Assembly (NCBI GenBank): GCA_902803285.1
Contig: CADCPC010000039.1
Location: 1-45,306, forward strand
Source of the DNA: an uncultured Erysipelotrichaceae bacterium
GTDB taxonomy: Bacteria > Bacillota_I > Bacilli_A > RFN20 > CAG-826
DNA: 45,306 nt
Direction: 5' to 3'
Shown: positions 1,980-45,306 of the stretch, piece by piece
Layout of the letters: each line of letters opens with the position of its first letter
Position numbering within the stretch: position 1 is the stretch's first letter
Program-made: the position numbers and the translations under genes
The notes under the pieces: generated by a model
What the model was told of the DNA's origin: nothing
Database searches by the model: none
What the model saw: the letters and a program-made list of their open reading frames with translations, nothing else

Positions 1980-2014
1980 TAAAAAATAAGCATTCATAAA
2001 TTAAGGGAAATATT

Positions 2015-5000
2015 ATGAATAAACGACGACTGAAAATAGGATTTGCCTCCCTTATAGGGGCAGTAGCTTTAGGGCTTACAATTACCGCTGTTTCATCAAA
2101 TGGCGGTTTTGCCTTTTCTAGAACCGATGGTGGCTTATATTCCATCACGTTAAATTCATCAAATAAGGTGACCTCCAATGGTGATCACTTAATGTACACC
2201 GCTAATGGTGGTGAAGTCACATTTACTTATACAAATACTTCTAGTTCTACTTCTGGACACGTTAGTTTGCTAGATGGCGGAACAGTTACTAATAAAGATA
2301 GAATCACTTCTATCGATACTTTCAGTTGTTCTTATTCAGGCTCAGGATATCTCACCTTTAAAACATCTTTAGACAATTCTACTTGGTCAGCAGAATCTGC
2401 CGCTATTACTAGTGAACAAGAATACACTATAAATAGTCACCCTTATTATTTAGCTTTAACTGCGCATGGTAGCGTTACCATTTTATCTGCTAGATATACA
2501 TTTACTTGTGTTCCAAACTCTAGTTCTAGCGAATATACAAAAGTCACATCTAATGATGATTTAACTGATGGCGAATATCTCATTGTTTATGAAACAGGAT
2601 CTGTTGCATTCAATGGTTCGTTAGACACGCTTGATGCAACAGAAAACACAATAGCGGTTACCATCAAAAACAACGCAATTACAGCAACTGATAAAATTGA
2701 TGCGTCAGCATTTACTATTGATATGGACGCAGGAGCAATTCAAAGTGCTTCTGGTTATTACATTGGTAGCGATTCTAACTCTAACGGCTTAAGCTCTTCT
2801 ACTACTACTGTATACGAAAATACAATCAGTATTGGAGAAAGTGGAGAAGCTACTATTGTTTCGAGCGGAGCATACTTAAGATACAATGCTGCATCTAACC
2901 AAAATAGATTTAGATATTACAAATCTTCATCTTATACTGGTCAAAAAGCAATTCATCTTTATAAAAAAGGCGGTTCTTCTACACCAGCAAGCGAAATTAC
3001 AAAAATTACTGTTAAATCTTCAAAGACAACATTTAACACTAAAGATAAATTAGAAGATTATTTAAACGGCATTACCGTTGACATCGAATATGACGATTCA
3101 ACCAAGAATGTTAATAATGTTGCATACGCTGATTTATCTACATATAAATTAGAATTAACTCTATTAACCCCAAGTGGCGTAAGTTATAAGACATCTGATG
3201 TTTTTGGCACATCAGGCACTTGGACAATCAGAGTTTCTGATAAACTTGACACAATTCACGGTGATGTATCAGTCACTGTTAAAGCGATTCCTGTTTCAAG
3301 TATCACTATTGGTGGAACATTAACTGTTGAAGCAGGCAAGACAACTCAATTAACCGCAACTGTTTCCCCAGATTACGCTGATAACCCATCTGTTACTTGG
3401 GAATCAGATGACATATCAGTAGCTACTGTTAGTACAACTGGTCTAGTCACTGGCGTTGCTGTAGGTACAGCAAAGATTACAGCTACCGCAAATGATGGCA
3501 GCGCTAAATATGGCGAAGTAACAATCGAAGTCACCGAAGCTACCGTCGTTGATGACGAAGGTGTATTTGAATTATTACAATCTGGTGCACCAGCCATTGG
3601 TGATTATGTAGTTATTGCTTCTGGCACAAGTGGTAGCGTTTATGCGATGAGCTCTGAGCAAAAGACAAGCAATAGAGCTGGCATTTCAACAACAGTTACA
3701 AATAGCACTATTACGCGTGATAGTAATTCTGAATTTGCTGCTTTTGAAATTCAAGAAGGTAGTGTTGAAGGCACATATGCATTCTATGATTATCTCAATG
3801 AAGGATATCTATATGCAGCAAGTAGTAGTGCTAACCAATTAAAATTAGAGAACACAATCTCTGGCAATTCAAGCTTTACTATTTCTGGAACAACAATCCA
3901 AGCAAATGGAACAAACTCTAGAAAATTAATGAGATATAATCCTAATGGCGGCAACCCATTATTTGCTTGCTATGCAACAAACACAAATGTCGGTAATGGC
4001 CCATCAATTTATGTAAAACAAGGTCAAAAGGTTTATGCAAATTCTATAGATATTAGCGGACCAGATAGCACATCTACTGGCTCAACAGAAAACTATTCAG
4101 TTTCTTATAATCCAGAGAACACAAACGTTAGAAATGTAACATGGACTTCTTCTGCAACCGGTGTTGCAACTATTGAAGATGGTGTTTTAACCGCTGTTTC
4201 AGCGGGGACTACTACAATTACCGCTAGTGTTCCAGGAGAAAATAGCACAACAATTAAAGCGACTAAGAAAGTTACTGTTTCTGATGTTGCAGTTACTGGC
4301 ATTTCATTAAATAAATCAACATTAACATTAGAAATTGATGAAACTTCAACACTGATTGAAACCGTTCTTCCAACCAACGCTACAAATAAAGCTGTCACAT
4401 GGACATCTAGCGATTCAGTTGTTGCGTCAGTCACTTCTGGTGTTGTTAAAGGCAAATCTGCAGGTGGTGCAACAATTACTGCAACTACTGCTGATGGTGG
4501 CTTTGTTGCAACTTGTAAAGTCACTGTTAATGCTGCTTCTGGTGGTGGAGATACCCCAGTTGGTGGCAGTGATACTTTAACTAAGGCAATAACTGGTGTT
4601 AGTGGCACAACTTATTCAGAATGGTCCGGCAAGACTGGTGAAAGTGGCGCTGTTTACGCAGGCCAATCCGCAGGAGACCATGATTCTATTCAATTAAGAA
4701 GCAACAATTCTAACAGTGGTATTGTTACAACTACTTCAGGCGGCATTATTGCTTCTGTGACAATTGATTGGAATTCAAACACCTCTACTGGCAGAACAGT
4801 TAATGTTTACGGTAGCCACTCTGCTTATACTGCGGCAAGCAGCTTATATGCTTCTGGCACTCAAGGAACATTATTAGGCACAATTGTTTATGGCACTTCA
4901 ACGTCATTAGAAATTTCTTCTGGCGATTATGAATATGTAGGCGTCCGTTCTTCTAGTGGCGCTCTATATATGACCTCAATTACGTTTGAGTGGGGTTCAT

Positions 5001-6400
5001 CCGAACCAATTTATCCAACCGCAATCACATTCAAAGATTCTGACATGGAATTAGGCTTAGGCAAGTCAACCACATTAGGCGTTAGCTTCACACCAAGCAA
5101 TGCAAATCAAAACAAAACATTAACTTGGTCTTCTTCTGACTCTTCTGTTGTCGCAGTTAGTAACGGAACAATTACTGCAAAAGCAATAGGCACAGCTACT
5201 ATTACAGCCTCTACAAAGAATCAATCCAATGCAACTATTAGTGATTCTGTTAAGATTACGGTTGTTGAAACTGCTCTAGATAAATGGACCATTATGATTT
5301 ACATGTGTGGTTCTGATCTTGAAACAGATAATTCCTTAGCAACATCAGACTTAAAAGAAATTTTGAGTGTTTCAGGACAACCAAGTGATATTAATATCAT
5401 TATTGAAACTGGTGGCGCTAAGACGTGGCATATGACAAACCCAACTGTCTCTTCAACAAAACTTGAAAGATGGCACATCAGAGATCAACAAATGATTAAA
5501 GATGATAGTCTTGCTATTGCAAGTATGGAAAAACAAAGCACATTCCAATCCTTCTTAGAATGGGGTCTTACAGAATATCCAGCTGAAAAGACTGGTGTCA
5601 TTATGTGGGACCACGGCGGAGCTATGATGGGTGTATGTTGTGATGAAAAACATGAATATGAAGGAATTACTGACGATGTCGTAGTTGCTGCTGTTGATGG
5701 AGCGTTCTCTAAAGTAGGCAGAACAGACAATCTCGAATGGATCGGATATGACGCTTGCTTAATGGGTGTTCAAGATATCGCTGATCTCAATTCACAAAGG
5801 TTCAACTATATGGTTGCATCCGAAGAATTAGAATCTGGCTACGGATGGGATTATGATAATTGGCTTGACAATTTATATGCTTATAATGATACGGAATCTG
5901 TCTTAACTGAAATTTGTACATCATTTATCAATGATGGCAGAAAGAGTTCTGACGAAACTCTTGCTTGGTATGATTTATCTAAAGCTGAAGCATATAGAAC
6001 CGCATGGGAAAATATGGCTTTGCAATTAAAATCAAAACTTAGCAATTCTAACAAATCAAGTTTTATAAGCTTGGTTAAGTCTTGTAAAACTTATGGTAGT
6101 GATGACTACACCGATGAATATATGGACAACTGTGTTTTTGATGCAAAAGACTTTGTTAATAAGTTGGCTGCTAATAGCACATTTAAACCAGATGCATCAT
6201 ACACTAATGCTGTATTAACAGCACACTCTAACCTTGTTAAGTGCTCCAAGAAAGGATCTAAGGCTGGCGAATCCTATGGAATTACAATGTTCTTCCCTGC
6301 TGGTGGAGATACTGGCATGAAATACTATTACACAACAGCCATGACAAGATTCACCAATTGGAGATATTTGTGTACCACATACAAAGGTTCTAACAGCTAA
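2015..6400 (+). CDS. Large multidomain secreted C11 (clostripain-like) protease
   Basis: A 1461-residue exported protein with an ordinary signal peptide (hydrophobic stretch about residues 9-27, no lipobox Cys). Approximate domain order: a beta-rich module (36-170); an unassigned module (173-318); a BIG3-like domain (326-425); a BIG2 domain (426-512); a second copy of the unassigned module (515-673); two BIG2 domains (674-757 and 757-847); a Ser/Gly/Thr-rich beta module (853-998); a BIG2 domain (998-1087); and a C-terminal C11 peptidase domain (about 1089-1461). The catalytic pair is His1200 in DHGG and Cys1248 in YDACLM. The protease domain is closely similar to that of the preceding gene (shared GSDLE, ATSDLKEILS and SEELESGYGWDYD), so the two are tandem paralogues. 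The TAAGGGA ribosome binding site is 6 nt before the ATG. The long non-catalytic part probably binds a surface, glycan or matrix, which is inference. Confidence 0.87.
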   Translation: MNKRRLKIGFASLIGAVALGLTITAVSSNGGFAFSRTDGGLYSITLNSSNKVTSNGDHLMYTANGGEVTFTYTNTSSSTSGHVSLLDGGTVTNKDRITSIDTFSCSYSGSGYLTFKTSLDNSTWSAESAAITSEQEYTINSHPYYLALTAHGSVTILSARYTFTCVPNSSSSEYTKVTSNDDLTDGEYLIVYETGSVAFNGSLDTLDATENTIAVTIKNNAITATDKIDASAFTIDMDAGAIQSASGYYIGSDSNSNGLSSSTTTVYENTISIGESGEATIVSSGAYLRYNAASNQNRFRYYKSSSYTGQKAIHLYKKGGSSTPASEITKITVKSSKTTFNTKDKLEDYLNGITVDIEYDDSTKNVNNVAYADLSTYKLELTLLTPSGVSYKTSDVFGTSGTWTIRVSDKLDTIHGDVSVTVKAIPVSSITIGGTLTVEAGKTTQLTATVSPDYADNPSVTWESDDISVATVSTTGLVTGVAVGTAKITATANDGSAKYGEVTIEVTEATVVDDEGVFELLQSGAPAIGDYVVIASGTSGSVYAMSSEQKTSNRAGISTTVTNSTITRDSNSEFAAFEIQEGSVEGTYAFYDYLNEGYLYAASSSANQLKLENTISGNSSFTISGTTIQANGTNSRKLMRYNPNGGNPLFACYATNTNVGNGPSIYVKQGQKVYANSIDISGPDSTSTGSTENYSVSYNPENTNVRNVTWTSSATGVATIEDGVLTAVSAGTTTITASVPGENSTTIKATKKVTVSDVAVTGISLNKSTLTLEIDETSTLIETVLPTNATNKAVTWTSSDSVVASVTSGVVKGKSAGGATITATTADGGFVATCKVTVNAASGGGDTPVGGSDTLTKAITGVSGTTYSEWSGKTGESGAVYAGQSAGDHDSIQLRSNNSNSGIVTTTSGGIIASVTIDWNSNTSTGRTVNVYGSHSAYTAASSLYASGTQGTLLGTIVYGTSTSLEISSGDYEYVGVRSSSGALYMTSITFEWGSSEPIYPTAITFKDSDMELGLGKSTTLGVSFTPSNANQNKTLTWSSSDSSVVAVSNGTITAKAIGTATITASTKNQSNATISDSVKITVVETALDKWTIMIYMCGSDLETDNSLATSDLKEILSVSGQPSDINIIIETGGAKTWHMTNPTVSSTKLERWHIRDQQMIKDDSLAIASMEKQSTFQSFLEWGLTEYPAEKTGVIMWDHGGAMMGVCCDEKHEYEGITDDVVVAAVDGAFSKVGRTDNLEWIGYDACLMGVQDIADLNSQRFNYMVASEELESGYGWDYDNWLDNLYAYNDTESVLTEICTSFINDGRKSSDETLAWYDLSKAEAYRTAWENMALQLKSKLSNSNKSSFISLVKSCKTYGSDDYTDEYMDNCVFDAKDFVNKLAANSTFKPDASYTNAVLTAHSNLVKCSKKGSKAGESYGITMFFPAGGDTGMKYYYTTAMTRFTNWRYLCTTYKGSNS

Positions 6401-6402
6401 TA

Positions 6403-8661
6403 ATGAACATTAACAAAATAATAAGATTATTATTTATATCAAGTGCAATGGTTTGTGTAGGGGTTTCTATGCAAACTTTTGCTATTTCTAGACACTTTTC
6501 TAAGGAAAATGAGTGTTCATCTGGCCCAATGTTTTATGCGGCCGGATATGCCTCAGAATACACTAATGAACCAAGTTATATAACTCAGAACCAATACACA
6601 TATAATTCTATGGAATTAGGAACCACATATAAAAGACATCGTGGTGATGGAGTTAAAGTTGCAGTTATTGATAGTGGCATTAACTATGAACACGAAGATT
6701 TTATATTAAACGATAATAGCGTCGTTAAATCCTCTTCCCGTTCCATTGAATATGATAGTGGTTGGAAATACTATAATTTTTCTAATTACCCAGAACATCT
6801 ACTTGATACATTAGGGCATGGCACAAATGTGGCTAGTGTAATAGCAAGTCAAATCAACTCTTTAGGCTGCGCTGGACTCGCTCCTAATGTTGAACTATAT
6901 GTCTATAAGGTTACTAATTCTAGCAATGGTTATGAATGGACCGCTATTCAAAATGCTTTGCAATACTGTATCGATAACAATATGGATGTTATTAATATGT
7001 CTTTCCAAGCATATGAACACGAAGTTACTTATGGTAGTTATAAAGTGGGAGCGTCAGTTGGCTGCTCTAGCATTTTAACTTCTAAGTTAAATGCATGCTA
7101 TGAAGCTGGCATTACATTAGTAGCGGCAGCAGGTAACTATAACACCAGCGAAAAGAGTTACCCTGCTAGTAATAATCATGTTATTTCTGTTGGCTCTTTA
7201 GCGGAATCTAGTAAGACAGAAAAGGCAGCCTATTCTAATTTAAGTGATATTGACTTAGTTGCTCCTGGCACAGTTTATGTTGCAGATATCGGTAGTTCAA
7301 ATAGTTATAAGAAAACTCAAGGAACATCTTTTTCTGCTCCGATAGTTACTGCCGCAATAGCCTTATATAAACAAAAGAACCCAACTGCTACTCCTAGCCA
7401 AATTGAAGAAGCCTTATATGCTTCTTGCGATGCGATAGAAGGCAATCCATCTTGGGCAGGCAATGGTAGATTAAACCTTAAGAATTTTATTAACGACGGA
7501 ACCGATTTAGTTAATGACATTATTCTAAATAATGTAGATAACGGTGAATTAATCATTAATGTTGGTGATACTTTTGATATTGACTATACAGTTGATGGAG
7601 AAGGCAACTTTGATGATTCTGTAAGTATTTATCCACTTATGGATGAAGGAGTTTTATCGGTAGATGAAAACGGAAGAATTACAGCGTTAAGTGAAGGCGA
7701 AGACTTCATCATCATTGAATCTAATCATGATGCGAGTATTTACGCTGAAATCGATGTGACAGTTACAGATTTACATTTAAATAATATTTCCATTACAGGA
7801 ATGACCACTAATTATGAAGTGGGTAGTGATTTTTTCTTTGATGGGACTTGTTTAGCAACTTATAGTAATGAATCAACAAAAGAAGTAACTCCAACAGTTA
7901 TATCTTTACCAAATATGGACAAAGCAGGAACATATAATGTTCAGGTTGAATATAGTGAATATGGAGATACAGTTACCGCCGAATATGAAGTGGTGGTTAT
8001 TGAGCCATTTATTGAAGTTACTTCTATATCTTTAGATAAACACGAGATAGAACTACATAAAGATGATGTTATAACAATCGAAGTGACTGTTGAGCCTGAT
8101 AACGCTACTAACAAAAACTTTGAAGTTTTATATGACGACACTGCAATCGAAATCGTAGAGCATACAGACAACTCAATAACCATAAAGGCTATTGGTGAAC
8201 CTGGAAACTCTACATTAACTGTTAAGGCTTTAGATGGCAGTGATTTAAGTGATGAATGTTCTATTACCATCTTAGAAGACCCTATCGAACCGGTGGATCC
8301 TATTGATCCTGTTGACCCAGCTGACCCAACTGATCCTGAAGATCCTGTTGACCCGACTGAACCAGAAGAACCTGTTGACCCAGTTGACCCTGTAGACCCA
8401 ACTGACCCAACTGATCCTGAAGATCCTGTCGACCCAGTTGACCCTGTAGACCCAGCTGACCCAACTGATCCTGAAGAACCTGTTGACCCAGAAGATCCAA
8501 CCGAACCTGAAGAACCAGAAGTCCCTACTGAGCCTACCGAACCTGAAATCAAAACTAATGGTTGTGGTGGTAGTGTTTTTTTCTCCAGCACACTATTAAG
8601 TATCCTATCTTTAACAGGTGCTTCTTTATTAATTATTAGCAAACGTAAAAAGCATAAATAA
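6403..8661 (+). CDS. Cell-surface subtilisin-like (S8) serine protease with BIG domains, Asp-Pro stalk and C-terminal anchor
   Basis: A 752-residue protein starting 2 nt after the previous stop, probably translationally coupled, with no clear ribosome binding site of its own. Signal peptide about 1-28. The peptidase S8 domain (about 60-325) has the triad Asp90 (VIDSG), His139 (GHGT) and Ser309 (GTSFSAP). A BIG2-like domain (370-455), a BIG3-like domain (457-535) and another BIG2-like domain (537-627) follow. Residues 627-710 are a low-complexity Asp/Pro/Glu stalk made of DPx units. The end is NGCGG (Cys721), a hydrophobic segment and KRKKHK. This resembles a sorting signal: a short Gly/Cys motif, a membrane helix and a basic tail. 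Likely an anchored extracellular protease held away from the membrane by the stalk. The substrate is unknown. Confidence 0.88.
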   Translation: MNINKIIRLLFISSAMVCVGVSMQTFAISRHFSKENECSSGPMFYAAGYASEYTNEPSYITQNQYTYNSMELGTTYKRHRGDGVKVAVIDSGINYEHEDFILNDNSVVKSSSRSIEYDSGWKYYNFSNYPEHLLDTLGHGTNVASVIASQINSLGCAGLAPNVELYVYKVTNSSNGYEWTAIQNALQYCIDNNMDVINMSFQAYEHEVTYGSYKVGASVGCSSILTSKLNACYEAGITLVAAAGNYNTSEKSYPASNNHVISVGSLAESSKTEKAAYSNLSDIDLVAPGTVYVADIGSSNSYKKTQGTSFSAPIVTAAIALYKQKNPTATPSQIEEALYASCDAIEGNPSWAGNGRLNLKNFINDGTDLVNDIILNNVDNGELIINVGDTFDIDYTVDGEGNFDDSVSIYPLMDEGVLSVDENGRITALSEGEDFIIIESNHDASIYAEIDVTVTDLHLNNISITGMTTNYEVGSDFFFDGTCLATYSNESTKEVTPTVISLPNMDKAGTYNVQVEYSEYGDTVTAEYEVVVIEPFIEVTSISLDKHEIELHKDDVITIEVTVEPDNATNKNFEVLYDDTAIEIVEHTDNSITIKAIGEPGNSTLTVKALDGSDLSDECSITILEDPIEPVDPIDPVDPADPTDPEDPVDPTEPEEPVDPVDPVDPTDPTDPEDPVDPVDPVDPADPTDPEEPVDPEDPTEPEEPEVPTEPTEPEIKTNGCGGSVFFSSTLLSILSLTGASLLIISKRKKHK
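8281..8533 (+). repeat. Tandem repeat encoding the Asp-Pro-rich stalk
   Basis: Inside the S8 protease gene, 6-, 9- and longer-unit repeats of the type GTTGACCCA/ACTGATCCT encode DPVDP, DPTDP and EDP steps. A longer unit of about 50 bases (CCAGTTGACCCTGTAGACCC and what follows) occurs at least twice, so the region probably grows and shrinks by slippage or unequal exchange. It gives spurious Ser/Gly-rich and Gln-rich frames on the opposite strand. Confidence 0.85.
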
Positions 8662-8675
8662 CTTATATCTTTTGA

Positions 8676-8703
8676 TAGCAATTTTTGAATATTGCTATTT
8701 TCG
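8676..8703 (+). terminator. Intrinsic terminator after the S8 protease gene
   Basis: Inverted repeat TAGCAAT (8676-8682) and ATTGCTA (8691-8697) with an 8-base loop, followed by TTTTC. It ends the protease block 15 nt after the stop codon and overlaps the -35 region of the next gene's promoter. Confidence 0.65.
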
Positions 8704-8711
8704 TGTATAAT
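8685..8711 (+). promoter_or_regulatory. Promoter of the M6 protease gene, -10 box next to the start codon
   Basis: TATAAT at 8706-8711 with a TTGAAT -35 candidate at 8685-8690 (15-nt spacer, short). Only 9 nt separate the -10 box from the ATG at 8721, so transcription should begin at or within a few bases of the start codon. No ribosome binding site fits in between. Confidence 0.55.
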
Positions 8712-8720
8712 AAAGCAAAT

Positions 8721-10820
8721 ATGAAAACAAAAAGTAAATTAGCCCTTATTCCTATATTTATAACCGCTATCTCATTATCTAGCTGTAGCTTTTGGGATAT
8801 CTTTGGAACTAGATTAAAATCTATTGATATTTCTGACATAAGCAAAGCTTACATATTAGGCGATGTTTTTGATGATAAAAACCAATTATCTATTACTGGC
8901 ACATATTCCAATGGCGAAACTAAAACACTAGCGTATAGTGAAGTAACAGTTAATTTGTCTTATCAGAATCCAGGAGAAACAATCACCGTTGATAGCAATA
9001 AACCTTTTACAGTGGCTAATAGATATCAATTAACAGTTTCTGTTAATAACGTCACATCAAACACTTTAACCATTAATGTTTTAGAACATCACATTTACGC
9101 TTCTTCTATTACATTAAACGGAGCAACCGCGATGAATGCTTGGAGCGAAGTAGAATTAACTACAACTGTTAATCCTATTAACTATACTGCTCCTATATCA
9201 TATAGAGCATCTAACTCTAACTTAGTGGAATTAACACCAACTGAAAGAGGTGTGAAGGTATATGGAGTTTCTGGTGGAGAAGTAGATATCATTGCTCGAA
9301 TTGCTAGTAGTGAATCTACTTATATCGAAGCAACTCATCACTTAACTATTTCTTCCTCAATTAACGTGACAACAATGTCGCAAAATTATAAAGATTACAC
9401 AGAAGATAATTATTACCGTATTAGCAGTTGTCCAACTAATGGTGATGTTAAACTTTTGGTCATTCCAGTATGGCTATCAGATTCTGCTAAATATATGTCT
9501 ATCTATAAAAAAGACGAAGTTAGAGAAGATATTGCTAAGGCTTATTTTGGTAGCGAAAAAGAAACAGGATGGCATAGTGTTTCCTCTTTCTATAGATATG
9601 AAAGCGGTGGCTTGTTAAATTTAAGCGGTACAGTTAGTAATTGGTATTCCAGTTCATTAAGCGCAAAGGAAGTTGGTGCTTATAACACTAAAGAAACATG
9701 CGCAGTTATTAAAGAAGCTACTAACTGGTATTTTGCTAATAATCCAACAGATTCCCGCTCAAATTATGATTTTGATGGCGATGGATATCTTGACGGAGTG
9801 GTATTAATTTACGCCGCTCCTGATTATTCTGCTTCTTCCTATTTAAGCGAATACGAGAATCTCTGGGCATATTGTTTTTGGATTCAAGAAGCTGCCAGTA
9901 TTGAAAACCCAGTTCCTAATGTTTTCTTCTGGGCATCGTATGATTTTATGTATGGCAAAGAAACAGCTTTTGTAAGAACTGGCAATTCATATTCTAATGG
10001 CGATACAAGTAGATGCTCTATTGACGCTCATACATATATTCACGAAATGGGCCACGTATTTGGTTTAGATGATTACTATGATTATGGTGGTTATAAATAT
10101 CGTCCATGTGGTGGATTCTCTATGCAAGATAGTAATGTGGGCGGACATGATCCATTCTCATTATTAGCCTTTGGCTGGGCAAATGCTTACATTCCAACTT
10201 CATCCATTGATATTAAATTAAGAAATTTTGATACAAGTCATCAAGTAATCTTATTAACACCTGAGTGGAATAGTTATAATTCCCCATTTGATGAATATTT
10301 GTTATTAGAATTCTATACAAATGATGGTGTTAATAAATTTGATACTGAGCAAGCATATTGTGGCTCATATCCACAAGGTCCACAAACTAAAGCGGGCGGC
10401 ATAAGATTGTGGCATGTCGATTCTCGTTTAATTAGATTAAATGACTCTACGGTCAGATTCTATAACAACTGCCAAGTAGGTAGAGTCACATTAGCGTTCA
10501 CTAATACATATTATAAGAATGAATCAGATATTGATTATGTAACCCCATTATTTAATGTCGATAGCAAATATGCAGATTATAACTTATTACAATTAATTAG
10601 AAATGATCACTTTGCAACATATCGACCAACAGGCAATATCTATACAAGTGATTTGTTCTATGATAATGATACGTTTGATATGTATGCATTTAGTTCACAA
10701 TTCGTAAATGGACCTTATCTTAATAGTGGTAAGTCATTAGGATTCTCCTTCAAGGTAAAAGAAATCTCCACCGATAGCAGTGGAGAAAAATACGCAACTA
10801 TATCAATTATTAAGGACTAG
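8721..10820 (+). CDS. M6-type (immune inhibitor A-like) zinc metalloprotease lipoprotein
   Basis: A 699-residue protein read from ATG 8721, chosen because it starts a lipoprotein signal peptide (MKTKSKLALIPIF..., lipobox LSSC). An in-frame ATG 36 nt upstream lies inside the terminator and promoter and is unlikely. After a BIG-type N-terminal region (about 30-220) comes the peptidase with zinc motif HEMGHVFGLDD (His441, Glu442, His445, Asp451) and, downstream, the conserved M6-like MQDSNVGGHDPFS. A DFDGDGYLDG segment before the active site looks like a calcium-binding loop, common in this family. It probably degrades extracellular proteins. The gene overlaps the convergent DUF368 gene by 4 bp at its 3' end. 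The leader seems to be absent (see promoter). Confidence 0.85.
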   Translation: MKTKSKLALIPIFITAISLSSCSFWDIFGTRLKSIDISDISKAYILGDVFDDKNQLSITGTYSNGETKTLAYSEVTVNLSYQNPGETITVDSNKPFTVANRYQLTVSVNNVTSNTLTINVLEHHIYASSITLNGATAMNAWSEVELTTTVNPINYTAPISYRASNSNLVELTPTERGVKVYGVSGGEVDIIARIASSESTYIEATHHLTISSSINVTTMSQNYKDYTEDNYYRISSCPTNGDVKLLVIPVWLSDSAKYMSIYKKDEVREDIAKAYFGSEKETGWHSVSSFYRYESGGLLNLSGTVSNWYSSSLSAKEVGAYNTKETCAVIKEATNWYFANNPTDSRSNYDFDGDGYLDGVVLIYAAPDYSASSYLSEYENLWAYCFWIQEAASIENPVPNVFFWASYDFMYGKETAFVRTGNSYSNGDTSRCSIDAHTYIHEMGHVFGLDDYYDYGGYKYRPCGGFSMQDSNVGGHDPFSLLAFGWANAYIPTSSIDIKLRNFDTSHQVILLTPEWNSYNSPFDEYLLLEFYTNDGVNKFDTEQAYCGSYPQGPQTKAGGIRLWHVDSRLIRLNDSTVRFYNNCQVGRVTLAFTNTYYKNESDIDYVTPLFNVDSKYADYNLLQLIRNDHFATYRPTGNIYTSDLFYDNDTFDMYAFSSQFVNGPYLNSGKSLGFSFKVKEISTDSSGEKYATISIIKD

Positions 10821-34517: not shown

Positions 34518-37331
34518 TTATTTTTTAGCAGCTTTCTTAGCAGTCTTCTTGACTGCTTTTTTTACACCCTTAGTAACGGCTTTACCTGCTTTCTTACGGA
34601 AAGACTTGCTAAAGATAATTGCAAGAGTGACACCGACTATGAGTGTGCCTCCACCAGCAGCAATGATAATGATTGTAGTGGTATCGAAGGTAATTCCACT
34701 CTTTGCTGGCTCAACAGTGATTTCATAAGTTGCAACTGCTGAAACACCATTTTCAGTATATTTAGCAGTTACTGTGTATTTACCAGCTTCAGACATCTTT
34801 TGTCCTGAGAAAACGAGATTCTCACTACTAGAGACATCTTTGATGCTGTCATCACTGTATCTAGCAATAACGACTGGCTTTACAAAGTGATCGCCAACAG
34901 TATATTTGGTTTTAGGATTGCTGATAGTGATTGAACTCAAAACAGGTATATTATCGCTAATGGTAATGGTATATGTTGCGGTAACAGTAATATCTCCTTC
35001 TTTGTAACCAACTAAAACTGTTTTTTCTCCAGTAGTGGTCATATCAGGAATATTAATGTTTTCAGGTTCAACTACTTGAGTAGTTCCATCACTATAATGA
35101 GCAGTAACAACTAGACCATCAGAATTGAAAGGTTCTCCCAAGACATATTCTCGCTTACCGCCCGACAAAGTAATACTTTCTAAAACCACTTGCGCTTTGA
35201 CTGTAACTTCAAATGTAGTAGTCACTGTGACGTCATCTTCTACATATGTAGCGGTAATGGTTTGAACTCCTGTGGTAGTTGGACTATATCCGTTATAAGT
35301 AACTTTATTAGTAACATCAGCGGTTGTGCCGTTTGTGTATGTAGCAACTACACTTATGCCTTCTACAGTAAATTCTTCACCATATTCATATTCTGTCTTG
35401 CCTCCGCTGACAGAAATACTGGTTAATAAGACAGGATCTTCCTCGATAGTGACTGTATATGAAGCGGTTTTTGTGATGCCGCCTTCCACATAACTGACGT
35501 TAATTGTATTGCTGCCAGCAGTAGTAGAATCAAAACCAGTAAATGTTAAATTAGCAGAGCTAGAAACATCTTCCTCGTCTCCATTAACATATTTAGCAAT
35601 GACTTGAGGTTTAACAAAAGTGCTGCCTTTACCATAGGAAGTTTTAGGATTCTTAACTTCAATACTAGATAAATCAGGTTTAACTATGTTAATAGTGTAA
35701 GAAGTGCTCTTAGTAACTTCATCTTCAGTATATGTAACAGTAACTGTTTTGCTTCCGATAGTAGAAGTATTAACACTGCTAACAGAAGTTGGAGTTACTG
35801 TTTTGGAAGAGCCATCTGAATATGAAGCTGTGCAAACACCATCAAAAGAGAATGGAGAACCTCTAACATAGCTTGTGGTTTGTCCACTGACTGCAATACT
35901 TGTTAAAGGTGCGACAACTGTAATAGAAATTGGCACTTCATAATTGGTTTCATCTATGGCCGCACTAGCAGTTAGAGTGGTTGTGCCGGTTTTTAAAGGT
36001 GTAATTGTAATATTTTCTCCTGAAGCACTAGAAGAACTGCTAATTGAGATGATAGTTGGATCATCAATATCCCAGTGAATAGAAGTGCCATTACTGGTTT
36101 TAGCATTAACAGTAGTGGTATTAGGAATATCTAATTTGATATCTGATTTAGAAACCGTGACTCCTTCTATACCTCCGATTGGATCACTGGCTGGATTTGC
36201 TGTTCCGGATTTATTGCCCCAAATAATATCTGCCCATTCAGGGAAATCAATAAATGGGTTTCTATTTTTGGTGAAATTTCTGTAAAGAAGATTGTTACGG
36301 TGAGCTTCAAACTCATCTGGTGGATCTATTTTGTTCCATTCGAGAAGGTCGGATATGATGCCTAATTTACCTGTTGTTGAAGAACTGGACACATACCCAG
36401 CGTAGCTCCAATCATCTAATGAATCTGTTAATGCCAAATTTGGATTATCAGAATCTATTCCGTCAGCATCGCTTCCAGAAAGATAATTATAACGAGCAAC
36501 CATATAGAAAACAGCTCTTGCTATATCGCCTTTGTCAGAATCTTGTGGCTCAAAAACAGTGGTTGTCGAGCTAGGGAATGTTTTGGAATAACCACTATAG
36601 TTACCGCTAGCGTAAGTATATTTGGATGAGCCATCTGTATAAGATTTTGTTTTATCTACATAGCCATAAAAATAATTACTATGTAGAGCACTATTAACGT
36701 AACTATCTCCTGGCCAAAGATGCATTGGATCACCTCTGGCTCCTCCTTGAGATTTGTTTTCGAAACCAGCAGATTTTGGCCAGATATGTTCCCTATCCAT
36801 TGACCACTTTGCATTGTTGCCATGAGATGTTCCACTTAAGCCATCATCAGTTCTTGCCCATGCTCTCATGTAATTATTCAAGCCTTCTCCTCGATTAACA
36901 TAAAGAGCATGTATATATGGGTTCATGCCAGAATTGTTGACTGATGAGCCATAACTATATCCATTAATTTCGTTTGTCAAAGAATTGTATCCAGATATTT
37001 GTGAAGCAGGAGATTTATCCCAGTCTCGATCTGTAATTTCATAAATTTGCCAGATTTTCTTTCCGTTATCGACATCGTATGAATAGTATTTCTGATTGTT
37101 TTTTAGAACATTTTTTAAATGGATTAATAAATCAGCGCCTCTATACCCAGCAACATCGTTATAGTAACTTCTAATGTCGTTTTCTGATAAATCATTAAGA
37201 TTAATGTTGGTAGGCAAAGATGCGACATCATAGGCATTTGCTTCTTTTTCTTGTCTGATAGCAGCAAAAACAATCGCGGTTGGCAAAGCAATAGCAACTG
37301 CAGAACTAAGGATTAATAATTTACGTTTCAT
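34518..37331 (-). CDS. Secreted endonuclease I-like nuclease with BIG repeats and Lys/Ala-rich C-terminal tail
   Basis: About 937 residues from ATG 37331, chosen over ATG 37349 because AGAGGA lies 8 nt before it. A signal peptide is followed by an endonuclease I domain (about 45-370) with the His-metal-finger signature MDREHIWPKS near residue 180 and GDPMHLWPGDSYVN. A BIG2-like domain and five group-3 BIG repeats of about 75-80 residues follow (each with a T/S-xY-xxG-xxF core and a V-x-Y-x-E/D end). The C-terminus has a membrane helix (TTTIIIIAAGGGTLIVGVTL) and a strongly basic tail, KKAVKKTAKKAAKK. Likely a surface-bound DNase/RNase for nucleotide scavenging. Convergent with the aro operon, whose stop is 4 bp away. 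Confidence 0.87.
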   Translation of the reverse strand: MKRKLLILSSAVAIALPTAIVFAAIRQEKEANAYDVASLPTNINLNDLSENDIRSYYNDVAGYRGADLLIHLKNVLKNNQKYYSYDVDNGKKIWQIYEITDRDWDKSPASQISGYNSLTNEINGYSYGSSVNNSGMNPYIHALYVNRGEGLNNYMRAWARTDDGLSGTSHGNNAKWSMDREHIWPKSAGFENKSQGGARGDPMHLWPGDSYVNSALHSNYFYGYVDKTKSYTDGSSKYTYASGNYSGYSKTFPSSTTTVFEPQDSDKGDIARAVFYMVARYNYLSGSDADGIDSDNPNLALTDSLDDWSYAGYVSSSSTTGKLGIISDLLEWNKIDPPDEFEAHRNNLLYRNFTKNRNPFIDFPEWADIIWGNKSGTANPASDPIGGIEGVTVSKSDIKLDIPNTTTVNAKTSNGTSIHWDIDDPTIISISSSSSASGENITITPLKTGTTTLTASAAIDETNYEVPISITVVAPLTSIAVSGQTTSYVRGSPFSFDGVCTASYSDGSSKTVTPTSVSSVNTSTIGSKTVTVTYTEDEVTKSTSYTINIVKPDLSSIEVKNPKTSYGKGSTFVKPQVIAKYVNGDEEDVSSSANLTFTGFDSTTAGSNTINVSYVEGGITKTASYTVTIEEDPVLLTSISVSGGKTEYEYGEEFTVEGISVVATYTNGTTADVTNKVTYNGYSPTTTGVQTITATYVEDDVTVTTTFEVTVKAQVVLESITLSGGKREYVLGEPFNSDGLVVTAHYSDGTTQVVEPENINIPDMTTTGEKTVLVGYKEGDITVTATYTITISDNIPVLSSITISNPKTKYTVGDHFVKPVVIARYSDDSIKDVSSSENLVFSGQKMSEAGKYTVTAKYTENGVSAVATYEITVEPAKSGITFDTTTIIIIAAGGGTLIVGVTLAIIFSKSFRKKAGKAVTKGVKKAVKKTAKKAAKK

Positions 37332-37402
37332 AAGCGTATCCTCTTTCATGTTAAGGATAACATATGAAAGTCAAAAGATAAATCTTTTCACAAATCATAT
37401 AG

Positions 37403-38878: not shown

Positions 38879-39472
38879 GTGATTAATTTTAATGTGATAA
38901 TTGTGGATACAAATACATATTCTCTTGAAAGCCTTTTATCTTCCTGCTTTTTATCTGATAGAGATCTTAATGAATTATCAAGGTTCAAATTAGAGGAGAC
39001 AAAAAAGGAAAAAACTGCTTCATTAATTCTTAAAAATAAATATGTTGGTGAATATCAAGTTAACGAATTTGGAAAACCAATAAGTGAGAAATGCTATTTC
39101 AATATCTCTCACTGTAAAGGTGTGGTGGTCTTTGTCAAAGATGATTTCCCTATAGGAATTGATATTGAAAAAATTAGGCCTATAGAAGACGATTTGAGAG
39201 ATTATATATCTTCTAAGGAAGAAAAAGAATTTATTAAAGACGACGAACAATTCTTCGAGATTTGGACAAATAAAGAATCATTAACAAAATGTCTAGGAAC
39301 AGGTATAAAAAATAAAATCAGTGAAATTCCCGCCTTACCAATTACAGGGATTAAAACTTATCAAAACAAAACACTATATTCTCGGACAATAAAATATCAA
39401 GATTATGTGTTGTCAATTACAAGAGATAATAAAGAGCCATTTGAAATAATAATTCAGGAGGAACGATTATGA
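38879..39472 (+). CDS. 4'-phosphopantetheinyl transferase, Sfp type
   Basis: A 197-residue enzyme that attaches the CoA-derived phosphopantetheine arm to carrier proteins. GTG 38879 is the only upstream start that fits; there is no Shine-Dalgarno sequence. Motifs: FNISHCKGVVVFV, GIDIEKI (Asp95 and Glu97, magnesium ligands) and FEIWTNKESLTKCLG (Trp129, Lys132, Glu133). It is shorter than Sfp (about 224) and lacks part of the N-terminal region. Its stop overlaps the NRPS ATG by 4 bp (ATGA), so the two are coupled and its main client is surely the NRPS carrier domains. Whether it also serves the fatty-acid carrier protein is not known. Confidence 0.9.
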   Translation: MINFNVIIVDTNTYSLESLLSSCFLSDRDLNELSRFKLEETKKEKTASLILKNKYVGEYQVNEFGKPISEKCYFNISHCKGVVVFVKDDFPIGIDIEKIRPIEDDLRDYISSKEEKEFIKDDEQFFEIWTNKESLTKCLGTGIKNKISEIPALPITGIKTYQNKTLYSRTIKYQDYVLSITRDNKEPFEIIIQEERL

Positions 39473-42400
39473 ATAAGAATTATCCATTAACTAAAAGCGA
39501 ACAAGGTTTGTATATTTCTTCGCTTAATTCCGGAGATGCTTATAATCTCGCTAATACGGTTAATTTAGGAAAAGAAGTTACTAAAGAGCAAGTAAATACC
39601 GCTCTTAATGCCGTATTTGAAGCGCATCCATATTTATTCACTGTTTTGAATATTGATGAAGAAGGTAATATTTCTAAACACATTGAAAAGGAAGAGATTA
39701 AACTTCCCTTTGAAGAAGTTAAAGAAATAAAAATCGATTCCAAACCATATGAATTACTCAATAAGCATTTATATCGCTTCAAACTTTTTAAAGTGAAAGA
39801 TGAATATGTTTTCTATTTTGATTTCCATCACATTATTGTCGATGGTAGTTCGATTCATATTTTTGTCAGTGACTTTTTAAAGGCGCTTGAAGGTAAGAAA
39901 CTTGAAAAAGAAAAAGTTGATGCGAATGAGTTCGCTTTAAAAGAAGCTATAGATCTTAAGAGCAATAAATATAAAACCGCTAAAGATTATTATGAAAAAT
40001 TAGTGGGTGGAGTGGAAACTGACTCTGCCCCTGTAGAAGATAAAACTGATGAGAATATTAGTTGGGGCAACATTAGGATGCCTTTAAAAGTTAGTGACCA
40101 AGAAGTTAAAGCTTTAACTAAAAAATTAGGAATTAAAACTTCTTCCTTCTTCTTAGGCACATTCTCTTACTTACTAAGTAAGATCAATATGGAAAATGAG
40201 GCCCTTTTCTTAGCTGTACATAACGGAAGAGATGAATCTGTCTTAAATAGTGTCGGTTCTTATGTTAAAACCTATCCCTTTTATTTAAGCTATCAAGATG
40301 AAGATAAAGTCAGTGACTTCTTAAAGAAGGCTAACGAACAACAAATTGATAATGTTAAGAATAACATCTATCCTTTTGCAGATTTAAATAAAGACTTAGG
40401 AGTTTCTGCTGATGTTTTATTCTCTTATCAAGGCGATTATTTCTATTCTGGAATTTATCAAGGAAAGTTAGTTGAAGTAACCCCTTTATTAAGAAAAGAC
40501 GGCAAAGAAAAACTCAGTGTCGAACTTCATCGATTAAACGGAAAATATATCATTTGGGTAGAATTTAGAGCGGACCTTTATAACAAATCCACAATTAAGC
40601 ACATCATTAAGATGTTTGATGTGGCGATTTCTGAATTTTTAAAGAAAGATAAACTTATTGATGTCAGTCTCATAGATGAAGAAGAAATAAAATTACTCGA
40701 CTCATTTAACAAGACTAGTTTCCCATATATTGAAGAAGGAAAAACTATTTTAGATGACTTCTTGGAGGTGGTGAAAAAACAGCCAAATGAAGTGGCGGTT
40801 GTTTTCAAAGATAAAAAATACACATATAAAGAAGTGGACGAAATTTCCACAAGAATCGCTAACGAACTCATTAGATTAGGGGCCAAAAAAGAAAAAGTTG
40901 TTTCCATTTTAGTAAAGAAATCTGAATATATTGCTTTAGCCTCTTTAGGCGTTATTAAGTCTGGTGCGGCTTATCAGCCACTTGATCCAACTTATCCAAA
41001 AGATAGATTATCTTTCATGGTGAAAGATTCTAACGCCATCATTTTAATTAGAGATAGAGAGTTAGATGATTTAATTGATGATTTTAAAGGTAAAGTGTTA
41101 TTTACTGATGAATTATTATCTTTAAAAGATAATTCGGAAATAAAGACGCGCCCATCACCAAAAGATTTATTTATCATGCTTTATACTTCCGGCTCTACTG
41201 GAGTGCCAAAAGGAGTAATGCTGGAGCATGGCAATATCTTTAGCTTCTGTAGATATTATCGACAAGAATTTAATTTTGGACCAGGCTCAAGGAACGCTGC
41301 TTATGCTAGCTATGGCTTTGATGCCGATATGATGGATTTATATCCTGCTTTAACAAGTGGAGCCACTGTCTATATCATTCCTGATGAGATGAGACTGAAT
41401 CTTGTGGAATTGGGTGAATATTATAATAAAAACCAAATTACTCACGCTTTTATGACCACTCAAGTTGGTCGACAATTCGCTAGTGAAATTGAAGTTAAAT
41501 CACTTAAATATTTCGCTGTTGGAGGCGAAAAGTTAGTGCCTATGGATCCTCCTAAAGGATATAAATTCTATAACTTATATGGACCTACCGAAGGTACCGT
41601 TTTCTGCACTCTCCAATTAGTTGATAAAAATTATCACCGTATCCCTATTGGTAAATGTTTAACCGATTATAAGATTTATGTTTTAGATAAAAACAAAAAG
41701 AGATTGCCAATCTTAACGAGTGGTGAACTCTATATTTCTGGACCTCAAGTTGCTAGAGGTTATTTAAATAGAGAAAAAGAAAACAGCGAAGCCTTCTTAA
41801 CTAACTGGTTCACTAAAGAAGAAAAATTTGAAAGATTATATAAAACTGGCGATATTGTTCGTTTACTTGAAGATGGAACGATTGATTTTATCGGCAGAAA
41901 AGACGGACAAGTGAAAATCCGCGGCTTTAGAGTGGAACTTTCTGAAGTTGAAAAAGTAATTAGAGATTTTAAAGGCATTAAAGACGCGACTGTTAAAGAT
42001 TTCACTGACCCTAGCGGAGTGAAATATATCGTTGCTTATGTGGTGAGCGACTCTAAGATTGATGTCGAAGCTTTAAATAATTTCATCTTAGAAAGAAAGC
42101 CGCCTTACATAGTACCAGCTTATACAATGCAAATTGATAAGATTCCTTTAAATCAAAACCAAAAAGTAAATAAGAAAGCCTTACCAGTTCCTGAACTTAA
42201 AGTTGAAGAAATGGTGGCCCCAAGAAATGCTGATGAACAAGATATCTTTGATATCTTAAAAGGTGTATTAGGGCATGATCAATTTGGTGTCACTAATGAC
42301 ATTTTTGAAGTGGGATTAACTTCTGTTAGCTCGATTAGATTTACAATTTTACTTTCTAAAAAATATAACAAGTCTGTCGATAATGGAGATTTAAAAGAGC

Positions 42401-45306
42401 ATTCAACAATCTCCTCTTTAGCAGCTTTCCTTGCTAATAAGGAGGAAGACAAGACTTTTGAAGTTTTAGATGAATATCCTCTGACCAAAACCCAAGAAGG
42501 TATTTTTGTTGAATGTGTTTCTAAACCTAATAGCACAAACTATAACATCCCTTATCTATTTAAATTAGACAAGAAGATGGATTTAACTAAATTAAAAGAA
42601 GCGGTTAGCAAGACAATTGATAATCATCCATATTTAAAATCCATTCTTCATATGAATGATAATGGTGATATTGTTGCTAGAAGAAATAATAGTGCCGCTA
42701 AAGTTGAGATTCTTAAAAAAGAGATTGATATTAAATCTTTAGTTAGACCGTTTTCTATATTAGATGGAGAACTTTTCCGCGTAGAAATCTATGAAGGGAA
42801 AGATAATTATCTCTTCTTAGATTTCCATCACATTTTATGTGATGGCACCTCTGAAGCGATTATTTTAAGCGATATCGATAAAGCCTACTCAGGAGAAAAA
42901 TTAATTCCTGAAACCTATAGTGGTTATGAAGTCGCCCTTCAAGAAAAAGAAGATTTAGCCTCCCCTAAACTTGATAAGGCTAAAGCCTACTATAACGAAG
43001 TTCTTAAAGATGTCGATGGAGAATATACTTTAAAGAAAGATTTAAAAGTTGAAGAAACTTCTAAACTTCAATCTATTGATTATGAATTAGATTTAGATAA
43101 CGAATTAGTAAAGAAATACGTTGAAGCAAATAAATTAACCAATAACGCTTTATTTAATTTTGCCTTTGCCTTCAGCTTATCTAAATTCATCTACAAAGAT
43201 GATTCTTTATATGAAACTATCTATAACGGTAGAAAATCTTCTAAGGTAATGAATAGTGTATCAATGTTTGTAAAAACCTTACCGGTTTATATCAAATACA
43301 CTGAAGAAGATTTAGTGCTTGTTAAAGTTAAAGAGATGCAAGAACTCTTATCAGGTCTTGAAGAGAATGATTTATATTCCTTTGGTGATGTCGCTAACGA
43401 CTATAATTTAAAAGCGGATATTATCTTTGCTTATCAAGGAGATAACTTTAATTTTGATACTCTTGGTGGATTTAAAGTCACACCAATTTTAATGGAAAGT
43501 GAGACTCCTAAGAGTGATTTTGGTTTAGATATTTTCTTGGAAAATAATAAGTATCGCGCTCATTTTGAATGGGATCAAGCAGTGTACACAAAAGACACCA
43601 TTGATTCATTTAAGCGTTTATATGAATTAGCTTTAAATGAATTATTGACTAAAAAGAATATCAAAGATATTAATTGTCTTCCTGATTTTGATAAAGGACA
43701 ATATGAGAAATTTAATCAAACTGAGGTAGAAATACCAAAAGATATAACTGTTAATAAATTGCTTGAAAAACAAGCTAAAGAAAAACCAAGCAAAGTGGCA
43801 GTAGTGGCTAAAAACGGTAAATTAACTTATCAAGAACTTAACGAATCTGCAAATAAAGTGGCTCATTCTTTAATTAAAGAAGGGGTTATACTTGCAGAAT
43901 GTGTCGTAATGTTTATGCCGCGAATTAAAGAAGCATATGTTGTTAGACAAGGCATAGTGAAATCTGGTGGAGCCTTCGTTCCGGTTGATCCAAAATATCC
44001 AGATGAAAGAGTAAGTTATATTATTACTGATTCTGGTTCTAAATTATTAATATCCACTCGTGAAATTATTAAACAAAAACAAGATTTAATTAAATCCACG
44101 AAAGTGAAGGCTTTAGCAATCGAGGATTTATTAGAGTCTAAAGATAATAAGAATCCTGATGTTAAGATTCCTCAATCTTCTATGGCCTATGTCATTTATA
44201 CTTCTGGTTCAACTGGTAAACCAAAAGGCGTGATGATTGCGCATAAGAATTTACTTAATTATGTTTTAGATGGCTCTAACTTAGCCACAATATGTTATCG
44301 CGATATTGGAGAAGACTGTGTTAGCTGCTCTTTTGCTTCGCTTTCATTTGATGCTTCTTTGCAAGAAGAATTTGTACCTTTAACTCATGGTTACACCGCG
44401 GTTATAGCAAGTGAAGAAGAAATTGAAAATCCAATGTTACTGGCTAAGACTTTAAAAGAGAATCACGTCAAATATATGTTCATGACCCCATCCTTTGTAT
44501 CTAATTTATTAGATATTGATGTCTTTGTGGACGCTTTAAAAGAATTTAAATATGTTGATATGGGTGCAGAAGCAGTCCCAATGGAACTTTGTAATCGCTT
44601 AAGAAGTTTAGGGGTGACCGCCAATTTATTAAATGGATATGGTCCAACCGAAACTACAATTACGGCGACATACGCTTTGGTAAAAGATAAATACATGACT
44701 ATTGGTAAACCAGTAGCCAACACTAAAGTTTATACTTTAGATAAGCACGGACACATCTTGCCAATTAACGCCATTGGTGATTTAACTATCGCTGGGGAAT
44801 CAGTTGGCTTAGGTTATTTAGGTTTAGCCGAAAAAACTAAAGAAGCCTTTATTGAAGTTAATAACTTAAAAGCTTATCGAAGTGGTGATATGGCAAGAAT
44901 TAACAGCGAAGGCAACGTGGAATTCTTTGGTCGACTTGATAACCAAGTGAAATTAAGAGGCTTAAGAGTGGAACTCGATGAAATTGAAAGAGTCCTTAAC
45001 TCTTATAATTCCGTTACAAGAAGTATTATCTTAGTTAAACAAAGTCCAGAAGGAGATTATTTAGCGGCCTACTTTACTGCTTCAAGTCAAGTTGATAAAG
45101 ACAAATTACTTGAACATATGGCTAAATACTTAACTCCATATATGGTCCCTAAAGTGGTGATGCAGTTAGATAAATTCCCACTTACCCCAAACGGTAAAAT
45201 CGATAAAAAATCTCTTCCAGAAATTGAAGTTAAAGAAGAAAAGAAAGAAGTGAAATCTGCTTCTAATGAGTTAGAAGAAAAACTCTTAACATTATTTAAA
45301 AAAGCT
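39469..45306 (+). CDS. Nonribosomal peptide synthetase, modules C-A-T-C-A-(T...), truncated by window end
   Basis: A single frame of 1946 codons, open at the right edge, with AGGAGG (39456-39461) 7 nt before its ATG. Approximate domains: condensation C1 (1-420) with HHIIVDG 120-126; adenylation A1 (425-905) with YTSGSTG from 572, YGPTE and A10 Lys899; thiolation T1 (912-985) with Ser952 in VGLTS; condensation C2 (1002-1425) with HHILCDG 1120-1126; adenylation A2 (1428-1920) with YTSGSTG from 1577, GYGPTE 1723-1728 and A10 Lys1910; and the beginning of a second carrier domain. Catalytic motifs of C, A and T are intact. No epimerase or methyltransferase domain is seen. It would join at least two amino acids. 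Base composition is AT-rich like the neighbours, so no recent transfer is evident by eye. Confidence 0.93.
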   Translation, partial: MNKNYPLTKSEQGLYISSLNSGDAYNLANTVNLGKEVTKEQVNTALNAVFEAHPYLFTVLNIDEEGNISKHIEKEEIKLPFEEVKEIKIDSKPYELLNKHLYRFKLFKVKDEYVFYFDFHHIIVDGSSIHIFVSDFLKALEGKKLEKEKVDANEFALKEAIDLKSNKYKTAKDYYEKLVGGVETDSAPVEDKTDENISWGNIRMPLKVSDQEVKALTKKLGIKTSSFFLGTFSYLLSKINMENEALFLAVHNGRDESVLNSVGSYVKTYPFYLSYQDEDKVSDFLKKANEQQIDNVKNNIYPFADLNKDLGVSADVLFSYQGDYFYSGIYQGKLVEVTPLLRKDGKEKLSVELHRLNGKYIIWVEFRADLYNKSTIKHIIKMFDVAISEFLKKDKLIDVSLIDEEEIKLLDSFNKTSFPYIEEGKTILDDFLEVVKKQPNEVAVVFKDKKYTYKEVDEISTRIANELIRLGAKKEKVVSILVKKSEYIALASLGVIKSGAAYQPLDPTYPKDRLSFMVKDSNAIILIRDRELDDLIDDFKGKVLFTDELLSLKDNSEIKTRPSPKDLFIMLYTSGSTGVPKGVMLEHGNIFSFCRYYRQEFNFGPGSRNAAYASYGFDADMMDLYPALTSGATVYIIPDEMRLNLVELGEYYNKNQITHAFMTTQVGRQFASEIEVKSLKYFAVGGEKLVPMDPPKGYKFYNLYGPTEGTVFCTLQLVDKNYHRIPIGKCLTDYKIYVLDKNKKRLPILTSGELYISGPQVARGYLNREKENSEAFLTNWFTKEEKFERLYKTGDIVRLLEDGTIDFIGRKDGQVKIRGFRVELSEVEKVIRDFKGIKDATVKDFTDPSGVKYIVAYVVSDSKIDVEALNNFILERKPPYIVPAYTMQIDKIPLNQNQKVNKKALPVPELKVEEMVAPRNADEQDIFDILKGVLGHDQFGVTNDIFEVGLTSVSSIRFTILLSKKYNKSVDNGDLKEHSTISSLAAFLANKEEDKTFEVLDEYPLTKTQEGIFVECVSKPNSTNYNIPYLFKLDKKMDLTKLKEAVSKTIDNHPYLKSILHMNDNGDIVARRNNSAAKVEILKKEIDIKSLVRPFSILDGELFRVEIYEGKDNYLFLDFHHILCDGTSEAIILSDIDKAYSGEKLIPETYSGYEVALQEKEDLASPKLDKAKAYYNEVLKDVDGEYTLKKDLKVEETSKLQSIDYELDLDNELVKKYVEANKLTNNALFNFAFAFSLSKFIYKDDSLYETIYNGRKSSKVMNSVSMFVKTLPVYIKYTEEDLVLVKVKEMQELLSGLEENDLYSFGDVANDYNLKADIIFAYQGDNFNFDTLGGFKVTPILMESETPKSDFGLDIFLENNKYRAHFEWDQAVYTKDTIDSFKRLYELALNELLTKKNIKDINCLPDFDKGQYEKFNQTEVEIPKDITVNKLLEKQAKEKPSKVAVVAKNGKLTYQELNESANKVAHSLIKEGVILAECVVMFMPRIKEAYVVRQGIVKSGGAFVPVDPKYPDERVSYIITDSGSKLLISTREIIKQKQDLIKSTKVKALAIEDLLESKDNKNPDVKIPQSSMAYVIYTSGSTGKPKGVMIAHKNLLNYVLDGSNLATICYRDIGEDCVSCSFASLSFDASLQEEFVPLTHGYTAVIASEEEIENPMLLAKTLKENHVKYMFMTPSFVSNLLDIDVFVDALKEFKYVDMGAEAVPMELCNRLRSLGVTANLLNGYGPTETTITATYALVKDKYMTIGKPVANTKVYTLDKHGHILPINAIGDLTIAGESVGLGYLGLAEKTKEAFIEVNNLKAYRSGDMARINSEGNVEFFGRLDNQVKLRGLRVELDEIERVLNSYNSVTRSIILVKQSPEGDYLAAYFTASSQVDKDKLLEHMAKYLTPYMVPKVVMQLDKFPLTPNGKIDKKSLPEIEVKEEKKEVKSASNELEEKLLTLFKKA

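Follow-up and report, generated by a model that had tools for sequence, protein, structure and literature searches.

The closest described relative of the system discussed here belongs to an archaeon. In Methanobrevibacter ruminantium M1, the cluster mru0066-mru0071 encodes a two-module nonribosomal peptide synthetase (NRPS) with the domain order C-A-T-C-A-T (condensation, adenylation, and carrier domains), and a reductase (R) is named in the legend of Figure S8 (Leahy et al. 2010, PMC2812497). That NRPS adjoins serine phosphatases, an anti-sigma factor antagonist, and a MatE efflux protein, and the authors proposed sensing, regulation, and export for the cluster with no mechanism given (PMC2812497). 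The subject of this report is an operon that begins at the right-hand end of the window, by which we mean the whole stretch of DNA analyzed: the entire 45,306-bp contig CADCPC010000039.1 (C39) of an uncultured Erysipelotrichaceae bacterium with a draft genome (G000) of 1.04 Mb in 73 contigs, 91% complete. As in M. ruminantium, compared through the text of that paper, an NRPS gene stands beside SpoIIE, STAS, and MatE genes, and the operon may be the bacterial counterpart of the archaeal cluster. The two differ in that the M. ruminantium cluster has an archaeal host, another gene order, two phosphatases, and a phosphopantetheinyl transferase (PPTase) encoded elsewhere (mru0514). In addition, a kinase domain is fused to the MATE exporter in our operon, and such a fusion has no mention in PMC2812497. 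A search of the open-access literature on NRPSs with SpoIIE, STAS, and MATE partners gave no description of the system beyond that one paper. As far as this literature shows, three things are new: the kinase-MATE fusion, the absence of a sigma partner, and the near-obligate pairing of the fusion with an NRPS across a family of Bacilli with small genomes.

Bacterial NRPSs offer further points of comparison. AusA and AusB of Staphylococcus aureus, which are responsible for the aureusimines (PMC12153313), resemble the new locus in having two modules, a terminal reductase with a similar R domain, and a dedicated PPTase. Unlike AusA, with its A-T-C-A-T-R order, the NRPS described here opens with a C domain. 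Membership in the AusA family itself (NCBIfam NF047350) was considered and rejected on that first-position C domain and on a score of 897.6 bits for 1946 residues against a cut-off of 2500. Ruminopeptin (rup) and the gut dipeptide aldehyde clusters, in which NRPSs of gut Bacillota make protease-inhibiting dipeptide aldehydes, are comparable to the predicted pathway by the description given where they are cited (PMC12327764).

The first-pass annotation, made from the window alone, had described a PPTase gene overlapping by 4 bp a two-module NRPS gene with intact C, A, and T motifs that stayed open at the contig end. The open reading frames (38879-39472 and 39469-45306), the Pfam domains, and the motifs given below bear this out, and the locus seen there turns out to be the beginning of a longer operon. 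The final 87 bases of the window match exactly the start of the reverse-complemented contig C25 of the same genome. Joining the two contigs produces a single open frame for an NRPS of 2,411 amino acids with the order C-A-T-C-A-T-R, in which the sequence to the right of 45306 supplies the rest of T2 and then the reductase. Relatives in rumen metagenome-assembled genomes (MAGs) carry the NRPS gene uncut, the nearest full-length ones being 82-93% identical, with 93% identity for the uncut NRPS of locus L034. A misassembled contig end or an early stop is ruled out by the 87-bp overlap, the open joined frame, and these uncut relatives, which also speak against a foreign contig. The features are as follows.

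C39 38879..39472, + strand: Sfp-type 4'-phosphopantetheinyl transferase, 197 amino acids, GTG start, first gene of the operon (Pfam ACPS, E 1e-11)
C39 39469..45306, + strand: NRPS residues 1-1946 of 2411 (C-A-T-C-A and the start of T2), reading frame open at the contig end, with T2-R on C25
C39 39469..40728, + strand: C1 condensation domain, HHIIVDG intact, candidate N-acylating starter C domain (sequence, C-domain tree)
C39 40729..42198, + strand: A1 adenylation domain, ten-residue code DAMQAGLVFK (read from sequence)
C39 42244..42432, + strand: T1 carrier domain (Pfam), serine in VGLTSVSS
C39 42469..43695, + strand: C2 condensation domain, HHILCDG (sequence)
C39 43744..45258, + strand: A2 adenylation domain, code DAQSDGGITK (read from sequence)
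C39 45220..45306, + strand: 87-base overlap with C25 (locus L097), along which the operon goes on
C25 to 4659, - strand: NRPS T2-R (joined reading frame)
C25 2890-4662, - strand: MATE-HATPase fusion, 590 amino acids (Pfam, predicted structure)
C25 2586-2882, - strand: STAS protein, 98 amino acids (sequence)
C25 438-2579, - strand: sensor-SpoIIE (PP2C)-HATPase protein, 713 amino acids (sequence)

The downstream genes are packed as tightly as the first two, with a 4-bp overlap between the NRPS and MATE genes followed by gaps of 7 nt to STAS and 6 nt to SpoIIE. Where the ratio of nonsynonymous to synonymous substitution rates (dN/dS) could be computed against five relatives, it fell at 0.06-0.31 for all five genes (0.09-0.20 for the PPTase), which indicates that the operon is kept under purifying selection.

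The three genes that follow the NRPS are, to judge by their motifs, a complete partner-switching set. The fusion was modeled as a MATE fold with a C-terminal HATPase (mean predicted local distance difference test score, pLDDT, 82), matching MATE structures in the PDB with a TM-score of up to ~0.85 of the target, and its orthologue in L034 hits Pfam MatE (4e-25) and, at the C terminus, HATPase_c_2 (6e-15). The HATPase domain also matches SpoIIAB and RsbW weakly by sequence (E ~0.01). Its kinase boxes, EMVDN (ExxxN) and DDGVPFDP, represent motifs (ExxxN and DDG(x)PFDP) that are kept in nearly all fusions examined. The STAS protein holds the phosphorylatable-serine motif ISSAGL (YISSAGLR). The SpoIIE protein consists of two membrane helices with an extracellular region between them, then a PP2C/SpoIIE phosphatase, whose metal-binding aspartates D382, D400, D519, D571, and D572 are invariant in the alignment, and then a second HATPase, in which ExxxN is kept and the DxG aspartate is not invariant. 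The nearest fold to the phosphatase half is the RsbU-RsbW part of Rv1364c; Foldseek returned PP2C/RsbU-RsbW matches and no named sensor fold for the extracellular part. The set thus resembles RsbU-RsbV-RsbW and SpoIIE-SpoIIAA-SpoIIAB in having a HATPase kinase, a STAS protein, and a PP2C phosphatase, all with intact motifs, and resembles Rv1364c in its PP2C-HATPase fusion. What sets it apart from these systems and from SiaABCD is that its kinase is joined to a MATE exporter and that the genome yielded no alternative sigma factor as a cognate partner.

How closely the exporter fusion and the NRPS travel together was assessed from two selections of loci, one by NRPS and the other by the MATE-HATPase fusion alone within the same family; the latter did not use the NRPS as a criterion, although its query alignment was built from NRPS-linked fusions. 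Of the 22 NRPS-selected Bacilli loci that have 4.5 kb or more of downstream sequence, 21 carry the fusion within 5 kb. Conversely, an R-ending NRPS stands directly upstream in 19 of the 20 fusion-selected loci, the exception being L219. Outside the Bacilli, 10 of 15 NRPS-selected loci carry one or more of the three partner-switch genes; most of these loci are from Lachnospiraceae, with others from Bacteroidales and Fibrobacter. Within the genus, a SpoIIE protein of ~715 amino acids is found in 14/15 genomes with the NRPS and in 0/4 genomes lacking it; the exception is G013, where the NRPS contig is cut inside R. The STAS frame is also present at L035, L039, L041, and L050. A plasmid search turned up distant NRPSs only, at <30% identity among the best matches. 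These surveys also bear on two earlier expectations. The proposed rarity of NRPSs in the lineage holds for related genomes at large, where 26 of 144 (in 9 of 59 genera) have a condensation domain, and fails for the genus itself, where 15 of 19 carry the NRPS. That the pathway might be undescribed in the lineage is only partly supported, given homologues abundant in public rumen MAGs and the similar M. ruminantium cluster (PMC2812497).

Genome-wide, G000 has one STAS domain, one SpoIIE domain, and two HATPase_c_2 domains, all within this operon, and the switch is therefore a closed set in this species. The single Sigma70_r2 protein found is 434 amino acids long, the size of RpoD, and one sigma factor each was likewise found in G001, G005, G009, G010, G013, and G017. 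No cognate alternative sigma factor was detected in G000 or in these six congeners, which are 94-97% complete. Because only one sigma factor was detected and the only STAS, SpoIIE, and HATPase_c_2 domains lie in the operon, a classical alternative-sigma output is unlikely in this species. Some congeners carry extra small extracytoplasmic function (ECF)-like sigma factors, as do other members of the family, so the statement that there is no sigma partner is confined to the genomes named. Archaea have no sigma factors. The occurrence of the related cluster in M. ruminantium (PMC2812497) therefore also points away from a sigma output.

On the biosynthetic side, the PPTase shows the motifs GIDIE and WTNKES and a weak NCBIfam match to AusB (77 bits against a cut-off of 225). 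Pfam finds two Condensation, two AMP-binding, one PP-binding, and one AMP-binding_C domain in the 1946-residue part of the NRPS, with E values down to 1e-148. The joined protein ends in an NAD-binding reductase with the motifs TGSTGFLG, STLS, and YVHSK (YxxxK), so that after the join it has the two modules and terminal reductase, in one protein, of a reductase-terminated dipeptide NRPS. The best solved-structure match of the reductase is PDB 6vtj/6vtz (E 6e-67), the T-R didomain of an NRPS that we take to be the archaeal M. ruminantium enzyme; its host and product are different. The A2 code is identical in nearly all Bacilli relatives, and the A1 code differs at hydrophobic positions. As a guess from the code, the fifth-position aspartate of A2 might point to a substrate whose side chain is basic or polar.

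The first C domain bears on the nature of the product. By known NRPS logic, a C domain in first position usually attaches an acyl group to the amino nitrogen, which blocks cyclization, and a pyrazinone is less likely for this reason. Such domains are often N-acylating, as was noted for M. ruminantium (PMC2812497). C1, which the C-domain tree separates from every second-position C domain, is a candidate for this type. Several Lachnospiraceae homologues have an extra N-terminal AMP-binding domain ahead of the same modules; it is probably an acyl ligase, since the amino-acid-anchoring aspartate is absent, and it fits lipo-initiation. By analogy, the N-terminal C domain favors an N-acylated dipeptide aldehyde over a pyrazinone as the predicted product, and aldehydes that inhibit proteases are made by gut NRPSs belonging to this general class (PMC12327764; PMC12153313). 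The small-peptide pathway with C-A-T-C-A-T-R architecture foreseen by the first-pass annotation thus gains from the architecture, the terminal reductase, and the operon's own PPTase, all in a small, AT-rich Bacilli genome, and of the two products that it named, aldehyde and pyrazinone, the latter would be the less likely.

We put a probability of roughly one half on the reading that this tightly packed five-gene operon makes, exports, and regulates a small peptide aldehyde, with the switch acting on the exporter. The PPTase would arm T1 and T2, C1 would acylate the first amino acid, C2 would join the second, and R would release the product as an N-acyl-dipeptide aldehyde (compounds of this class are known protease inhibitors) for export by the MATE domain. 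The regulatory steps are less certain. The exporter-borne kinase domain may phosphorylate the STAS serine, the membrane phosphatase may strip this phosphate in response to an outside signal, and binding of STAS to the kinase domain of the exporter may turn export on or off. We assign the switch to the exporter because the genome yielded no sigma factor of the kind that such a switch would be expected to control. A more sweeping version is tentative, and we lean against it as a whole: a sigma-free partner switch in which STAS phosphorylation, read from the extracellular sensor, gates release of the peptide aldehyde through the kinase-MATE protein, and in which the fusion also serves other small-molecule pathways of gut bacteria (NRPS, acyl-ligase-T-C with an esterase, GH3-type ligases). 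More distant Lachnospiraceae fusions do adjoin other small-molecule genes (L194, L204), and several are without such a neighbor.

Several observations weigh against the exporter reading. G001 has the NRPS, STAS, and SpoIIE genes, and a MATE-HATPase was detected nowhere in its genome, so the exporter cannot be the sole target of the switch there; its A1 and A2 codes (L098) are also unlike those of the rest of the genus. At least three loci (L221, L223, L231) have the fusion and no adjoining STAS or SpoIIE gene. Many family members outside the genus carry the extra ECF-like sigma factors, and a sigma factor could have been missed in G000, which is 91% complete. On the product side, substrate prediction from DAMQAGLVFK and DAQSDGGITK matched no specificity confidently, and C1 is 24% identical to the C domains behind the acyl-ligase module as compared with 28% to second-position C domains.

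The case of G001, which has STAS and SpoIIE-HATPase but lacks a detected MATE fusion, also counts toward an alternative that we consider unlikely. In it, the housekeeping sigma factor, or some other transcription factor, is what the kinase domains hold, the switch acts on transcription in the operon or in the cell as a whole, and fusion to the MATE protein only anchors the kinase at the membrane. The HATPase of the fusion is homologous to SpoIIAB and RsbW, an RpoD-size sigma factor is present, and an RsbW homologue reportedly binds the primary sigma factor in Chlamydia. This alternative leaves the fusion of kinase to exporter and the NRPS pairing (19/20 fusion-selected loci) unexplained, and the related archaeal cluster (PMC2812497), in a domain of life without sigma factors, fits it poorly. 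The extracellular region between the two membrane helices of the SpoIIE protein, the operon shared by NRPS and sensor, and the presence of the SiaA PP2C domain among the best structural matches would agree with a different arrangement, where the target of the switch proteins lies outside the operon (in SiaABCD, for instance, it is a diguanylate cyclase) and the sensor reads the NRPS product as a signal, in an autoinducer loop. We regard this loop as quite doubtful. The sensor domain is the fastest-changing part, with 22-29% identity among relatives with an unchanged A2 code, a poor fit to a receptor for a conserved product, and this rapid divergence beside a constant code argues that the sensor reads something other than the product.

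The more conventional explanation, an ordinary AusA-kind cluster for a dipeptide aldehyde or pyrazinone that happens to lie beside a stress-signaling cassette, could draw on the best NCBIfam score of the NRPS being to AusA (898 bits; cut-off 2500) and on the resemblance of its reductase to that of AusA (E 6e-32). An incidental neighborhood is excluded by the overlapping genes, the linkage across many genera, and the co-occurrence pattern, and AusA, with the order A-T-C-A-T-R (PMC12153313), does not start with a C domain; we give this explanation little credence.

The interest of control at the exporter lies in where the switch is found. Partner switching is textbook control of sigma factors, and here a complete set sits in a peptide-synthetase operon, with its kinase fused to an exporter, in genomes of ~1 to 1.5 Mb in which an alternative sigma factor of the expected kind is not seen. 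If the switch does act on the exporter, it would be a new way to regulate secretion of bioactive small molecules, widespread in rumen and gut bacteria, and would help to account for the similar cluster of M. ruminantium, an archaeon that produces methane. The operon also gives a concrete reason to search an uncultured rumen lineage for an aldehyde that inhibits proteases.

Other arrangements of the switch genes were seen. At L105 (7816-12792), L106 (5276-10246), and L194 (2093-10761), STAS lies beside an acyl-ligase-T-C protein of 995-1007 amino acids and a carboxylesterase, and L194 also has MATE-HATPase, a separate HATPase, and a SpoIIE phosphatase. At L204 (7385-10775) and L205 (5900-8126), the MATE-HATPase gene adjoins a gene resembling GH3-family acyl-amido synthetases (Pfam GH3 in L204) and a SpoIIE phosphatase gene. 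L227 and L229 have MATE-HATPase, STAS, and then a response-regulator gene, with no SpoIIE found directly downstream. G002, G005, G008, G014, G016, G017, and other congeners have a separate set made up of STAS, a STAS-containing protein of ~385 amino acids, and a SpoIIE-HATPase of ~625 amino acids; this set also occurs in NRPS-less genomes and in L053 lies directly downstream of the NRPS operon.

Elsewhere in the window, positions 34518-37349 (- strand) encode a 943-amino-acid secreted Endonuclease I-type nuclease with Ig-like (Big_3) repeats. A run of secreted or surface proteases occupies positions 156-10820 (+ strand): a subtilase, two clostripain-family (C11) proteins that carry Ig-like domains, and a protein that matches M6 weakly. 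The run lies outside the NRPS operon, at a distance of ~28 kb from the NRPS. Since peptide aldehydes are classical inhibitors of such proteases, the enzymes of this C11/subtilase run could be targets or partners of the aldehyde.

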